A stretch of DNA of 5,911 nt from positions 1 to 5,911 of the forward strand of contig JAFGBW010000153.1 in the NCBI GenBank assembly GCA_016932965.1. The letters run 5' to 3'. Every line of letters starts with the position of its first letter. Within the stretch, counting starts at the first letter, position 1. Origin of the DNA: Candidatus Auribacterota bacterium. GTDB taxonomy: Bacteria; Auribacterota; JAFGBW01. Under the pieces are notes generated by a model. The model was not told the origin of the DNA and made no database searches. It saw only the letters and a list, made by a program, of their open reading frames with translations. The position numbers were made by a program, and so were the translations under genes. Shown piece after piece: positions 1 to 4,451 of the stretch.

Positions 1-242
1 GACATCACGGCTGCCACCGGAGGATAAAAGGGAGGCATGCCCGTGGCCAGGGCTGAGATGAGCGGGATAATAAAGGAAGTGATCCCGGCTGCAGCCGGAC
101 CCACGTAAAAACCGAGCAATACAAGCGGAAGATACATCGGCATGAAGATATGTCCCAGGTGGAAAAGATGAAACACAAGCGGCAGAAGCAGGGCAACCGC
201 CCCTAAAATAGCGCAATAAGCGATTTCATTTGTTTTGATCAT
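1..242 (-). CDS. ECF-transporter S-component-like membrane protein, 3' part beyond the window
   Basis: This is the first 80 codons of a hydrophobic protein reading out of the left edge of the window. The start is the ATG at 242-240; a TAA lies directly upstream in frame (245-243), so no longer start is possible. No good Shine-Dalgarno is visible, and the gene begins 8 nt after the receptor stop, which suggests translational coupling in one operon. Two to three membrane helices are visible (about residues 7-24, 36-56, and from 57). The stretch GHIFMPMYLPLVLLG (30-44), followed by GP (48-49), P60 and TGMPP (67-71), resembles the amino-terminal half of S components of energy-coupling-factor transporters, the inner-membrane substrate-binding subunits. 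It lacks the MHI.(E/D)G start usual for the Ni/Co S components NikM and CbiM. A role in nickel or nickel-chelate import is inferred only from the NikR and receptor context; a vitamin-type substrate is possible. The family call is from memory of sequence patterns. Confidence 0.68.
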   Translation of the reverse strand, partial: MIKTNEIAYCAILGAVALLLPLVFHLFHLGHIFMPMYLPLVLLGFYVGPAAAGITSFIIPLISALATGMPPFYPPVAAVM

Positions 243-250
243 TTAAACGC

Positions 251-2149
251 TTAAAATTTCCATTTGATTCCGGCTGAAAAATTTCTTCCTGCCATCGGAT
301 AACCGGGAAGGTATTCGTATGTTTCATCCGTCAAGTTTTCTACGGCCATATAACATTCACCCTGAATTCCGGAAAATACCGACAGATCACAGCTCATTTT
401 CAGGTTTGCAGTCAGGTAATCAGAGATCTCTTCCATGTCCGTTTGGGACAAGGACCCTGACCGACCGTTATAGGCATACTGGGAACCGACATACTGCGCA
501 TCAATTGACAGATTCAAATGATCCATGAATTGAGACGAAATTCCTGCGCTGGCGCTGAATCCAGGCATTCGGGGGGAGAGTTCATCATCTGGTTTTAAAA
601 ACGTCAATCCCAAAAATATAACCAGATTCTCTCCCGGGAAGAAATGGACCGATGTTTCGCCCCCGTTGGTTTTGATCCGTCCGATATTCAGTAATCCGTT
701 TGGAGTGGATTGAAGATGATTGCTGCTGTCATAACGGAACACCGAAGCCTGCAGGGCGATTTTATCGGAGTGAGTCCAGTGAAATCCCAATTCCACGCTG
801 TCGAGCACCTCGGCATCCAGCCGGCTCAGCGTAGAAGCGGATACTCCCTTGGCATAGACACCCGGATAATTGACTCCTCTGGCATACAGTACATAGATTT
901 TCCCCCCATTTTTTTCAGCGGTAACGGAAAGGCAAGGCGCTGTTTCAGAATCAAAGTCGCTGTTTTTATAAAACCGGATGCCTGCGGAAGGAATGAGTTT
1001 CAGCTCATTCAATTCCAACAGATACCGCGTTCCTGCATAAGGAGCAATGGTGTTAAATCTGCCTTTGAAGCTGAACGGAACCATGCCTGTTACCGTGACA
1101 TTTTGTGATTCACCGCCCTTGGATTCATAGTCGAGGCTTCCGGTCAGCGTGAAGTTTCCGATCAGCATATCATAAGAAGACCGAAAACCATAATTGGTCC
1201 AATCCGTATTCGAATTGCCGGGCGGGGTTCCCATTCCGTTCAGGTTGTCCTTGGCCCAGCGGATTGTTCCGTCCTCGGCATAGAAAAGGGAAAAGCCGTT
1301 TACCTGTTTTCCGCTTTTGTCCATGCGCAGCACATGAGAGACTGTTCTGGTGGTGAATTTATCGCGCACGGGTATGGGACGGTCTATGCGTCCCGGGTCA
1401 CGGCTCCAGTTATCCGTGGCCTGCACGATATAGGACAGGTGGTTTTCTTCAGATATATCCGCGCCCAGTCTTAAATACTCAGCGTTGAGACTCGCGTCGG
1501 CATGAGGCCTGTGCCCTTCAGACTGTTTATGAGAAGCCCCGATATAATAATTAAAACCGGATATTTTTCCGCCGTGGGTCAAATTTCCGATAACGGTGTC
1601 GAACTCGCCGTATCCAAGATTGATTTTGGTTTCAAATCCTGGCAAATTTCTCTCCAGGGTGCTGATGTTAACAGAACCGAACGTGCCGGAGTAAGTTTGG
1701 GGTTGCGGCCCTTTGAAAACAGTGATTTTTTCTGCAAAATCCACCGGAACCGTATCCATGAGGGGATGTCCCCATACGCCGGATTCTAAGGGTGCCCCGT
1801 TCACATAAATTCTGATTTCGCTGCCGGGGCGACCGGAGCCGTGGCCGCGGATATACACGCTGCCTCCGTCAGCTCCGCCGTATGATCCAAGGGGATTATA
1901 CCGGGAGATTGTCACTCCCGGCACGCGTCTCAAGGCCGAGGTCAATTCCTGGGCATTTAATTTATCGATCTGTTCCTCACCCACTACGCTTGTGACGCTT
2001 CCGTCGTCGCCGATTTCTTCTTTCTCCGTGACCGTGGACAACGGCAGATCAATCCGGACCCGTATGGGGCGGTCTGCGGCATAGGTGCATGGAAGCGAGG
2101 CCAGGCAGAATAAAAACAGGCATAAAATTTTTTGTTGGTTCGAAAACAT
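251..2149 (-). CDS. TonB-dependent outer-membrane receptor, probable nickel/metal-complex receptor
   Basis: This is a complete 632-residue receptor, about the size of BtuB, that would import a scarce ligand across the outer membrane using TonB-ExbBD energy. Residues 1-24 form a signal peptide (basic NQQK, then a Leu/Phe/Cys-rich core, ending TYA). TVTEKEE (39-45) is a possible TonB box. The plug domain spans about 51-166, with LTSALRRVPGV, VYIRGHGSGRPGSEIRIYVNG and VDFAEKITVFKGPQP as its recognisable blocks. The rest alternates like a beta barrel and ends NLTDETYEYLPGYP...KWKF, with the terminal Phe expected for outer-membrane insertion. I chose the ATG at 2149 because GGAG lies 6 nt upstream; an in-frame ATG at 2161 (4 residues longer) has no comparable site. 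It lies 77 nt downstream of nikR behind a NikR-like operator, and the S-component gene follows 8 nt later. The ligand is inferred from this regulation to be nickel, cobalt or a chelate; the sequence alone does not prove it. A His-bearing segment (HRPHAD, about 213-218) is probably in or near a loop. Confidence 0.93.
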   Translation of the reverse strand: MFSNQQKILCLFLFCLASLPCTYAADRPIRVRIDLPLSTVTEKEEIGDDGSVTSVVGEEQIDKLNAQELTSALRRVPGVTISRYNPLGSYGGADGGSVYIRGHGSGRPGSEIRIYVNGAPLESGVWGHPLMDTVPVDFAEKITVFKGPQPQTYSGTFGSVNISTLERNLPGFETKINLGYGEFDTVIGNLTHGGKISGFNYYIGASHKQSEGHRPHADASLNAEYLRLGADISEENHLSYIVQATDNWSRDPGRIDRPIPVRDKFTTRTVSHVLRMDKSGKQVNGFSLFYAEDGTIRWAKDNLNGMGTPPGNSNTDWTNYGFRSSYDMLIGNFTLTGSLDYESKGGESQNVTVTGMVPFSFKGRFNTIAPYAGTRYLLELNELKLIPSAGIRFYKNSDFDSETAPCLSVTAEKNGGKIYVLYARGVNYPGVYAKGVSASTLSRLDAEVLDSVELGFHWTHSDKIALQASVFRYDSSNHLQSTPNGLLNIGRIKTNGGETSVHFFPGENLVIFLGLTFLKPDDELSPRMPGFSASAGISSQFMDHLNLSIDAQYVGSQYAYNGRSGSLSQTDMEEISDYLTANLKMSCDLSVFSGIQGECYMAVENLTDETYEYLPGYPMAGRNFSAGIKWKF

Positions 2150-2155
2150 TGCTTT

Positions 2156-2159
2156 CTCC
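2156..2159 (-). promoter_or_regulatory. Shine-Dalgarno site that decides the receptor start
   Basis: GGAG on the minus strand lies 6 nt before the ATG at 2149. It overlaps the other possible start codon (ATG at 2161-2159), so a ribosome bound here could only use the downstream ATG. The upstream ATG is preceded only by the weak AACCAAG. Confidence 0.6.
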
Positions 2160-2175
2160 ATCTTGGTTGTTAAAT

Positions 2176-2202
2176 GTATTACGAATTTTATATTCGTGCT
2201 AC
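2176..2202. promoter_or_regulatory. NikR-like operator in front of the receptor gene
   Basis: This 27-bp imperfect inverted repeat has left arm GTATTAC (2176-2182), 13 bp, and right arm GTGCTAC (2196-2202). Extended by three bases into the spacer, the arms read GTATTACGAA and, on the other strand, GTAGCACGAA, matching at 8 of 10 positions. The layout equals that of the stronger site before nikR, and both resemble the GTGTTAC-N13/14-GTAACAC signal I recall for deltaproteobacterial NikR. The left arm matches that consensus 6/7 but the right arm only 4/7, so it may be a weaker operator. It lies between nikR and the receptor and covers a possible -10 box. Confidence 0.6.
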
Positions 2203-2215
2203 GATTTAAGTTAAA
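2187..2215 (-). promoter_or_regulatory. Tentative receptor promoter inside the operator
   Basis: On the minus strand TATAAA (2192-2187) is a 5/6 match to the -10 box, lying in the spacer of the NikR-like operator. With 17 bp spacing the -35 would be the poor TTTAAC (2215-2210). A better -35-like TTGACT (2226-2221) starts right after the nikR stop but has no -10 at a suitable distance. If the TATAAA box is right, repressor binding would block polymerase directly. Confidence 0.35.
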
Positions 2216-2226
2216 AAAATAGTCAA

Positions 2227-2637
2227 TTAAAATTCGTTCCCTTTGGTCGTCAGGCTGAGTGTTCCGTGCTTGACGCCTTTGACGGATTTGAGACTGTCGG
2301 ACAATTTTTGGATCAGTTTTGCGCTGCCGTGTACGGCGATGATTTCAAGACAGTTGTCATGGTCCAGGTGCATATGCTGGGAAGCCAGGATGAGATGGCC
2401 GAAATCATGCTGGATATTGGTCAATTGATTGACGAGGCTCCTTTTATGGTGATCGTAAACAAGAGTTATCGCGCCGGCGATTTTTTTATTGGTACGGAAT
2501 TGTTTTCTGACCAGATCTTCCCTGATGAGGTCCCTGATCGCTTCCGAGCGGCAGGTGTACTTTTGTTGACTGATCAGGGAGTCGAACTGTTTGAGGAGGT
2601 CCTTTTCCAGTGAAACGCCAAATCGGATCAGGGGCAT
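2227..2637 (-). CDS. nikR: NikR, nickel-responsive ribbon-helix-helix repressor
   Basis: At 136 residues this is the usual NikR length (E. coli 133). The amino-terminal ribbon-helix-helix DNA-binding domain spans about 1-47, with beta strand LIRFGVSL and the near-invariant RSEAIRDLIRE (30-40). The carboxy-terminal ACT-like nickel-binding and tetramerisation domain spans about 53-131. The four residues that form the square-planar Ni site in E. coli NikR (H76, H87, H89, C95) align with H77, H88, H90 and C96, inside QHD and QHMHLDHDNCLE. All are present, so the protein should sense Ni(II). The closing GVKHGTLSL matches the GVRHG block of the family. The start ATG has AGGAG (2650-2646) 8 nt upstream. 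It is the first gene of the left-reading metal-uptake locus, and the operator over its own promoter suggests autoregulation. The identification is firm; the regulon is inferred from the operators. Confidence 0.96.
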   Translation of the reverse strand: MPLIRFGVSLEKDLLKQFDSLISQQKYTCRSEAIRDLIREDLVRKQFRTNKKIAGAITLVYDHHKRSLVNQLTNIQHDFGHLILASQHMHLDHDNCLEIIAVHGSAKLIQKLSDSLKSVKGVKHGTLSLTTKGNEF

Positions 2638-3021: not shown

Positions 3022-3045
3022 TGTATGGCCTGTATGGCCTATAAT
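3015..3045 (+). promoter_or_regulatory. Possible promoter of the PilZ gene
   Basis: A perfect -10 box, TATAAT (3040-3045), lies 35 bp upstream of the PilZ start. The best -35 is TTGGAT (3015-3020), at a longer than ideal 19 bp spacing, so the promoter may be weak or need an activator. The spacer is formed almost wholly by the tandem repeat. Confidence 0.4.
3022..3039. repeat. Two tandem copies of a 9-bp unit before the PilZ gene
   Basis: TGTATGGCC occurs twice without a gap (3022-3030 and 3031-3039) and abuts the TATAAT box that follows. Its position means a change in copy number would move any upstream promoter element relative to the -10. Confidence 0.8.
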
Positions 3046-3080
3046 ATGCGGTTTAATGTGTTAAATCAGAGGATCTCCTT

Positions 3081-3401
3081 ATGTTAAACAGAAGAAAAAT
3101 TCCCAGAAATCATTTATATGAATTTTTCAAAACTGTTGACAGAAATACCAATCAGTTAATAGGACACTTAACTGATATTTCTGTAGAAGGAATCAATTTA
3201 ATAACCAATCAAAAAATTGAACCTTATCAGGTCTATGAATTAAAAGTATTATTACCTGAATATATGAAATATGAGAGTATATCCTTAGATGTGATATGCG
3301 TGTGGTGTAATACGGAACTCCCTGATTATGTGTATCGCGCCGGATTTCAGTTGCTAAAAATATCTATCAAAGACAAAGAAGTCATTGAATCCGTATTCTG
3401 A
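3081..3401 (+). CDS. Small PilZ-domain protein, predicted c-di-GMP receptor
   Basis: This 106-residue cytoplasmic protein consists of a single PilZ domain. Both parts of the c-di-GMP binding signature are present: RKIPR (residues 5-9, the RxxxR motif) and DISVEG (32-37, the [D/N]xSxxG motif), 22 residues apart. The rest is predicted beta barrel ending in YRAGFQLLKIS, like the closing strand of PilZ domains. The start ATG has AGAGGA (3068-3073) 7 nt upstream. Stand-alone PilZ proteins usually pass a c-di-GMP signal to flagellar, pilus, exopolysaccharide or other machinery by protein contact; the partner here is unknown. A PAS/HD-GYP gene 1.7 kb away could lower the same second messenger. The gene is about 31% G+C by hand count, clearly lower than the sampled parts of the HD-GYP gene (about 50%), suggesting a different history or relaxed composition. 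It appears to be a single-gene transcription unit. Confidence 0.87.
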   Translation: MLNRRKIPRNHLYEFFKTVDRNTNQLIGHLTDISVEGINLITNQKIEPYQVYELKVLLPEYMKYESISLDVICVWCNTELPDYVYRAGFQLLKISIKDKEVIESVF

Positions 3402-3464
3402 ATCCCTAAAGTCGAAGACGTTCCTTCTGAATTCTTCATTCTCAATTCTGCACCGGAGCAGAGA

Positions 3465-4408: not shown

Positions 4409-4451
4409 AATTAAAAAAGGGAAAAACGTTAAGTTTTTCCCTTTTTTAATT
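4409..4451. terminator. Strong bidirectional intrinsic terminator
   Basis: This is a perfect 19-bp stem (4409-4427 with 4433-4451) around the 5-nt loop GTTAA. Each arm has A6-GGG-A5 or T5-CCC-T6, so RNA from either strand forms a hairpin ending in U-rich sequence. It lies 27 bp after the methyltransferase stop and 35 bp after the stop of the convergent periplasmic gene, and should serve both. Confidence 0.9.

Follow-up and report, generated by a model that had tools for sequence, protein, structure and literature searches.

The three minus-strand genes at the left end of contig JAFGBW010000153.1, from a Candidatus Auribacterota bacterium, quite probably constitute a NikR-repressed operon for the acquisition of nickel across both membranes. 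This contig (G000:C228) was analysed over its whole length of 5911 bp and is referred to here as the window; its base 1 is a contig end, and the source genome (G000) is a 3.14 Mb assembly, 93% complete, in 300 contigs. The genes are, in this order, nikR (2227-2637, 136 amino acids), encoding a nickel-responsive ribbon-helix-helix repressor, a gene for a TonB-dependent outer-membrane receptor (TBDR; 251-2161, 636 amino acids), and a gene for the S component of an energy-coupling factor (ECF) transporter, of which the N-terminal 80 amino acids (3-242) run from the ATG to the contig end, where the gene is cut. A spacing of 65 nt separates nikR from the receptor gene. An earlier reading of this DNA, made from the letters alone (the sequence-only reading), had placed the receptor and S genes 8 nt apart, both behind nikR on the same strand, and the coordinates of the open reading frames bear this out (gap at 243-250). 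Its further idea of a nickel-linked class of S component served by a dedicated outer-membrane receptor now draws support from a NikR operator, from the linkage of the same genes in related genomes, and from a [NiFe] hydrogenase in G000, with nickel as the presumed cargo.

The nikR product matches the NCBIfam model NF003381 (E=7.7e-52, score 175 against a cut-off of 105) and the Pfam domain NikR_C (E=2.5e-31). When aligned to the NikR of P. horikoshii (2bj1, E=7.1e-36) it retains the His, His-x-His and Cys ligands (in QHDF, HMH and NC), and it thus joins the ribbon-helix-helix to the C-terminal nickel domain as expected of the family. The published NikR operator of delta-proteobacteria is GTGTTAC-[N13/14]-GTAACAC (PMC545781), and candidate sites were scored over the 14 half-site positions of this consensus. 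The top match in the window, at 2660-2686 and about 23 nt ahead of the nikR start codon (GTGTTACAATTTTAATAAAGATAACAC), agrees at 13 of 14 positions, against 10 of 14 for the runner-up, and its score was equalled by none of 100 shuffles of the region. Read on the coding strand, it is GTGTTAT-N13-GTAACAC, with half-sites identical to those of the D. vulgaris nikMQO site in PMC545781. Good operators (12-14 of 14) are likewise present ahead of nikR in six related loci (L050, L063, L096, L099, L101, L128), and also at the NikMNQO loci L058, L061, L129, L130 and L133. In genome G028, a second nikR beside NikMNQO (L127:369-743) is broken by a stop codon, and the intact copy leads the S-type operon. 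A weak candidate for a second site within the gap between nikR and the receptor gene of the window (2176-2202, 10 of 14) was equalled by 106 of 2000 shuffles and is not distinguishable from chance, so that it is at most suggestive; it overlaps a promoter-like -10 element on the minus strand, itself no better than chance.

Known nickel ECF importers use NikM-type S components. The protein encoded in the window is of a different kind, as the sequence-only reading had held in describing a vitamin-type S component devoid of the NikM/CbiM start motif, and this description stands both for the first 80 residues and for full-length homologues. The S protein and a profile built from it were searched in 98 and then 384 genomes, and the flanking regions were compared, yielding a family set of 41 members (the window protein plus 40 homologues). 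The truncated S protein matches PF12822 (ECF_trnsprt) with E=1.6e-5 and 25.4 bits, below the cut-off of 30.7, and family members fall on both sides of this limit (22.4 bits in L040, 36.6 in L046), with 36 of the 41 matching the model. Against the family profile A1 it scores E=1.5e-31. In addition, it is 57% identical to the full-length S protein of the Kiritimatiellota locus L040 (WRJS01000001.1), which likewise lies behind a matching receptor, and the short open reading frame is therefore a real gene and not a chance one. No member of the family matches PF01891 (NikM/CbiM), and comparison of the S and NikM profiles with hhalign gave a probability of 0.7%, that is, no link. The profile search placed neither the window protein nor any homologue confidently in a named vitamin family: the window protein reaches 17.2 bits with FolT (cut-off 60) and 14.8 with ThiT (cut-off 108), and the weak matches of the family to the FolT, riboflavin and ThiW models are at best 8.9e-9 (FolT) and 1e-6 (riboflavin).

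In an AlphaFold2 model built from 41 aligned rows (pLDDT 95.3), the L040 homologue adopts the S-component fold of about six helices, and its best structural matches are all S components: RibU (Z 16.1), the HmpT complex (15.6), ThiT (15.4) and BioY (14.7), with the metal S entry 4m5b at 11.8. The likeness to these PF12822-type vitamin proteins extends over nearly the full length; what sets the present S proteins apart from them is a TGMPPxxPP motif, the lack of a confident fit to any named family, and their nickel context. In the family tree, a single supported clade of 20 rows (96/98) holds the window protein and the members linked to NikR, to a TBDR, or to the methyltransferase (MT) described below; counting contig pairs for NikR, the loci of this clade contain NikR in 12, the methyltransferase in 15 and a receptor in 14 of the 20 cases. 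The window and L040 proteins are tree partners (100/95). Among 16 core members, P20, H24, G29, P34, P38, P59, S62, TGMPP and PP73-74 are invariant, and TGMPPxxPP is specific to the clade. As a separate observation, an FmdE-family gene (PF02663) stands beside NikR, a type IV pilin-like gene and an S component in two different families (L113:7383-9867, L120:6859-9025), and in the other S clade, FmdE lies next to S in the loci L097 and L116.

The receptor is recognised by its Plug domain (E=2.9e-19), and its start codon is more likely the ATG at 2149 than that at 2161, since GGAGAAAG directly precedes the former. It is 47% identical to the L040 receptor. By sequence, its closest solved structure is the receptor for pyrroloquinoline quinone (PQQ), YncD/PqqU (E=2e-8), and a search of a library of solved structures returned generic relatives only. 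The Plug domain and the order nikR-TBDR, here and in related genomes, place a TonB-dependent receptor inside a NikR operon, and we regard the protein as a NikR-controlled receptor that would transport nickel. In a tree of receptors, those partnered with S components and those partnered with ZnuABC-type importers are intermixed: the window receptor groups with that of L040 (S) and, more distantly, with those of L175 and L044 (ZnuABC).

The gene set recurs in more than ten GTDB families. In L045, a single contig carries NikR-EcfT-EcfA-TonB-TBDR-S-MT, with the methyltransferase gene running off the end and continuing at G024:C159. The full set is split over contig pairs in G009 (L126+L049), G017 (L125+L047) and G028 (L128+L048); a similarly split pair in G020 (L050+L095) is one where the methyltransferase was not found, and all these joins are deduced from the gene order at ends broken within the operon. 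Other arrangements are NikR-EcfT-EcfA-TBDR-S-MT (L106), NikR-TBDR-S-MT (L046, L101), NikR-S-MT (L096, L099), TBDR-S-MT-EcfT-EcfA (L040, L103) and MT-EcfT-EcfA-S-TBDR (L098). The sequence-only reading had looked to the DNA left of base 1 for genes of the transmembrane and ATPase subunits, EcfT and EcfA; they do lie within the operon in relatives (L045, L050, L126, L128, L106, L103, L098, L040), and none was found in G000, where the contig ends in S. The EcfT proteins of L040, L045, L103, L106 and L050 exceed the CbiQ cut-off. The surroundings of S in the relatives are thus NikR, EcfT, EcfA, TonB and TBDR rather than the vitamin-synthesis genes which the sequence-only reading had named as evidence that would tell against it.

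The association with nickel extends from the locus to the genome. NikR is encoded by 16 of the 20 S-clade genomes against 112 of the 384 overall (p=1.9e-6), and by 10 of the 13 that lie outside the phylum of the window (p=1.6e-4), figures which count genomes and not independent events; in the other S clade, it is found in only 1 of 20 genomes. A PF01891 (CbiM/NikM) gene was not found in G000; 2 of 16 core-clade genomes have one, compared with 8 of 20 further genomes that encode NikR, a set that was chosen and not drawn at random. G000 also encodes a [NiFe] hydrogenase large subunit (L199:2527-3852) with both nickel-binding Cys motifs, RICGIC and DPCISCSAH; [NiFe]-hydrogenase-type sequences occur in most of these genomes, some of the matches being relatives of complex I. 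From regulation, linkage and the absence of NikM we infer that nickel would be the cargo.

The most regular companion in related operons is a class I methyltransferase that uses S-adenosylmethionine (SAM) (METHYLTRANSFERASE, profile A2; model pLDDT 96). The model matches only generic Rossmann methyltransferases in the solved-structure library. The enzyme was found in 38 of the 384 genomes at E<=1e-35, all 38 sequences sharing Pro112-His113, His138 and His149 (numbered without the first Met), and 26 of these genomes contain NikR (p=1.4e-7); a search of plasmid records detected none. The methyltransferase gene also follows NikR-TBDR alone (L165, L180) and, in a further group of loci, ZnuA-ABC-ZnuB: in L063 with NikR and a TBDR, in L177 with NikR, in L167, L168 and L175 with a TBDR, and in L172, L173, L178 and L181. 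The ZnuA and ABC-3 assignments in the ZnuABC loci were confirmed. Such ZnuA-ABC-ZnuB-methyltransferase clusters, several with TonB and a TBDR, span L167:7687-13289, L168:460-5999, L175:7205-12352, L172:4704-7869 and L178:7179-10101. These importers are likely annotated as zinc transporters, and it is through the methyltransferase and the receptor that they are tied to the NikR module. Since the receptor family and the methyltransferase pair with either, S and ZnuABC look interchangeable, and on a plain reading a single receptor/methyltransferase module would be served in the inner membrane by either S-EcfTA or a ZnuABC-like importer. Ahead of the S genes of the other clade no operator was detected, and none was found ahead of most ZnuABC-methyltransferase operons that lack an adjacent nikR; for this reason, nickel is not claimed on operator grounds for either group. 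In another NikR locus (L062:8534-13880), NikR-TBDR is followed by Peripla_BP_2, FecCD and ABC genes, which represent a chelate-type importer resembling FecBCD/BtuCDF.

The proposed model is that, when cytosolic nickel is low, NikR would leave 2660-2686, allowing expression of nikR, the receptor, S and the genes past the contig end. With TonB, which relatives often encode in the operon, as its driver, the receptor would bring a scarce complex of nickel through the outer membrane; the vitamin-fold S component would bind nickel in the inner membrane, probably as a small chelate, and pass it to EcfT-EcfA for ATP-driven import, with NikR closing the regulatory loop. In other genomes, the class I methyltransferase encoded after S is likely to synthesise or alter the nickel ligand, a role that, like the presence of EcfT, EcfA and the enzyme itself in the organism behind G000, is presumed from the related operons. 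Taken as a whole, the system is real and conserved and is best read as a variant of ECF nickel uptake whose new parts are the S class and its methyltransferase partner.

Whether S would accept a chelate or a bare ion is the closest question. Three features favour a small chelate: a receptor dedicated to the system, the vitamin-type fold, and a methyltransferase of the small-molecule type that is regularly present. We put forward, tentatively and with slightly less than even confidence, that an S class with no sequence relationship to NikM takes up nickel as a chelate, that the dedicated methyltransferase builds or processes the ligand of this chelate, and that this enzyme and the receptor together make up a portable nickelophore module fitted to ECF or ZnuABC-type importers according to lineage. 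It is a fair possibility, though less likely than not, that the operon serves nickel as proposed but that S takes bare Ni2+ from the receptor, the methyltransferase having an unrelated or regulatory role. ZnuA-type proteins, which also accompany this receptor family and methyltransferase, bind bare ions as a rule and fit a chelate less well, and the S clade has possible metal ligands in the invariant His24 and Met68 and the near-invariant Met35. His24, however, is also conserved in the S clade without NikR, and so on its own does not indicate nickel; moreover, the methyltransferase is too regular in the clade for an unrelated partner, and the importer of L062 is of a type typical for chelates. 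Several further observations weigh against a nickel operon of the proposed composition. Neither EcfT, sought with PF02361 and with a profile of the operon EcfTs, nor the methyltransferase was found in G000; as no second half or fragment of the S gene was found there either, and contig C227 (L055) does not continue the left end of the window, the most straightforward explanation would be an assembly gap, which probably holds the missing EcfT and EcfA genes and may also hold that of the methyltransferase. Two clade members (L121, L122) have neither NikR nor the methyltransferase nearby, and an operator search of L098, L100, L103, L046 and L106 yielded nothing convincing. Lastly, a PTPS/QueD-like gene (L040:5860-6336) overlaps the end of EcfA and closes the L040 operon, hinting at pterin or queuosine chemistry, and it is unexplained under a nickel function.

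That gene, together with QueA near the more distant family member L097, would suit an S component importing an organic vitamin or cofactor precursor of the riboflavin, thiamine, folate or queuosine type, with no functional link to nickel. The proximity of the fold to RibU, HmpT and ThiT, and the weak riboflavin and FolT matches of some members, point the same way, but the fold is common to all S components and so uninformative on cargo, the named models fit poorly, and the window protein scores far below their cut-offs. This explanation is improbable also because NikR linkage recurs across unrelated families, and because L105, a TBDR-S-methyltransferase operon in a genome with nikR elsewhere, has a 13/14 operator about 60 bp before the receptor gene that none of 300 shuffles equalled. 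No riboswitch was found in 12 loci examined, which counts against a vitamin and, as regards cobalamin riboswitches, against cobalt or a corrinoid as cargo sensed by a NikR responding to Co and Ni. For cobalt speak the membership of the operon EcfT in the CbiQ family and the prediction that some NikKMLQO systems have switched to this metal (PMC2667541). The operator is nonetheless that of nickel regulons (PMC545781), B12 genes were not noticed in the mapped neighbourhoods, which were not searched family by family, and most genomes have the hydrogenase-type sequences mentioned above with their complex I relatives; cobalt is thus a quite remote prospect. Least credible of all is that nikR forms a unit distinct from the TBDR-S pair and is its neighbour by chance, the pair serving iron, zinc or haem. 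The 65-nt gap, the resemblance of the receptor to YncD/PqqU, and the ability of the ECF transporter LhaSTA to carry haem (PMC7299338) would allow it, but linkage of NikR and S in 12 of 20 clade members cannot be chance, and several genomes place EcfT and EcfA between nikR and the receptor.

Like NikMNQO and NikKMLQO, the proposed nickel system combines an ECF build, with a CbiQ-type EcfT and an ABC ATPase, with NikR control through a matching operator, and a TBDR and TonB lie near some NikMNQO loci as well (L061). It differs in an S component that shows no profile similarity to NikM and lacks its N-terminal MHIPDG, and NikN, NikK and NikL were not noticed in its loci. The available portion of Zhang et al. 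2009 lists both known systems, and its text has no such S class (PMC2667541). In Caldithrix abyssi, nikR, a NikR-like motif, a TonB-dependent receptor and ECF parts occur together, and the corresponding loci (Cabys_1316-1319, 2622-2627) are annotated as nikMNQO, with neither a separate S class nor a methyltransferase described in the accessible portion of the source (PMC5317091); this is probably an example of the system described here. Beyond that account, no description of the operon was found in the literature, and a search that left out most subscription papers found no account of a NikR-tied S class other than NikM, nor of the methyltransferase. LhaSTA of Staphylococcus lugdunensis resembles the proposed system as a metal-regulated ECF transporter for a metal chelate, but it is a Gram-positive, Fur-controlled system for haem that has no outer-membrane receptor (PMC7299338). 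FrpB4 and FecA3 of Helicobacter pylori are NikR-controlled outer-membrane nickel receptors (cited in PMC11247825), and their inner-membrane partners are NixA and NiuBDE rather than an ECF transporter (PMC7840056). A second S class under NikR, unrelated to NikM, would explain the nickel supply of genomes with NikR and hydrogenase that lack NikM, and would correct the annotation 'ECF transporter S component', perhaps along with 'zinc ABC transporter'. The conserved methyltransferase suggests a pathway for a nickel ligand that has yet to be described.

To the right, the window carries plus-strand genes for a PilZ protein, a CmcI-like methyltransferase and a PAS-HD protein; neither these nor the LTXXQ protein also encoded in the window have an evident tie to the uptake genes. 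The PilZ gene and its upstream region (3035-3397) have an 81%-identical copy at G000:C154:13918-14281, a duplication, and the stretch of about 50 bp right after PilZ (3394-3449) is a dispersed repeat with four further copies in the genome (C231, C205, C105, C111). Between two convergent genes, an inverted repeat at 4409-4451, matching its own reverse complement at 93%, is probably a bidirectional terminator.

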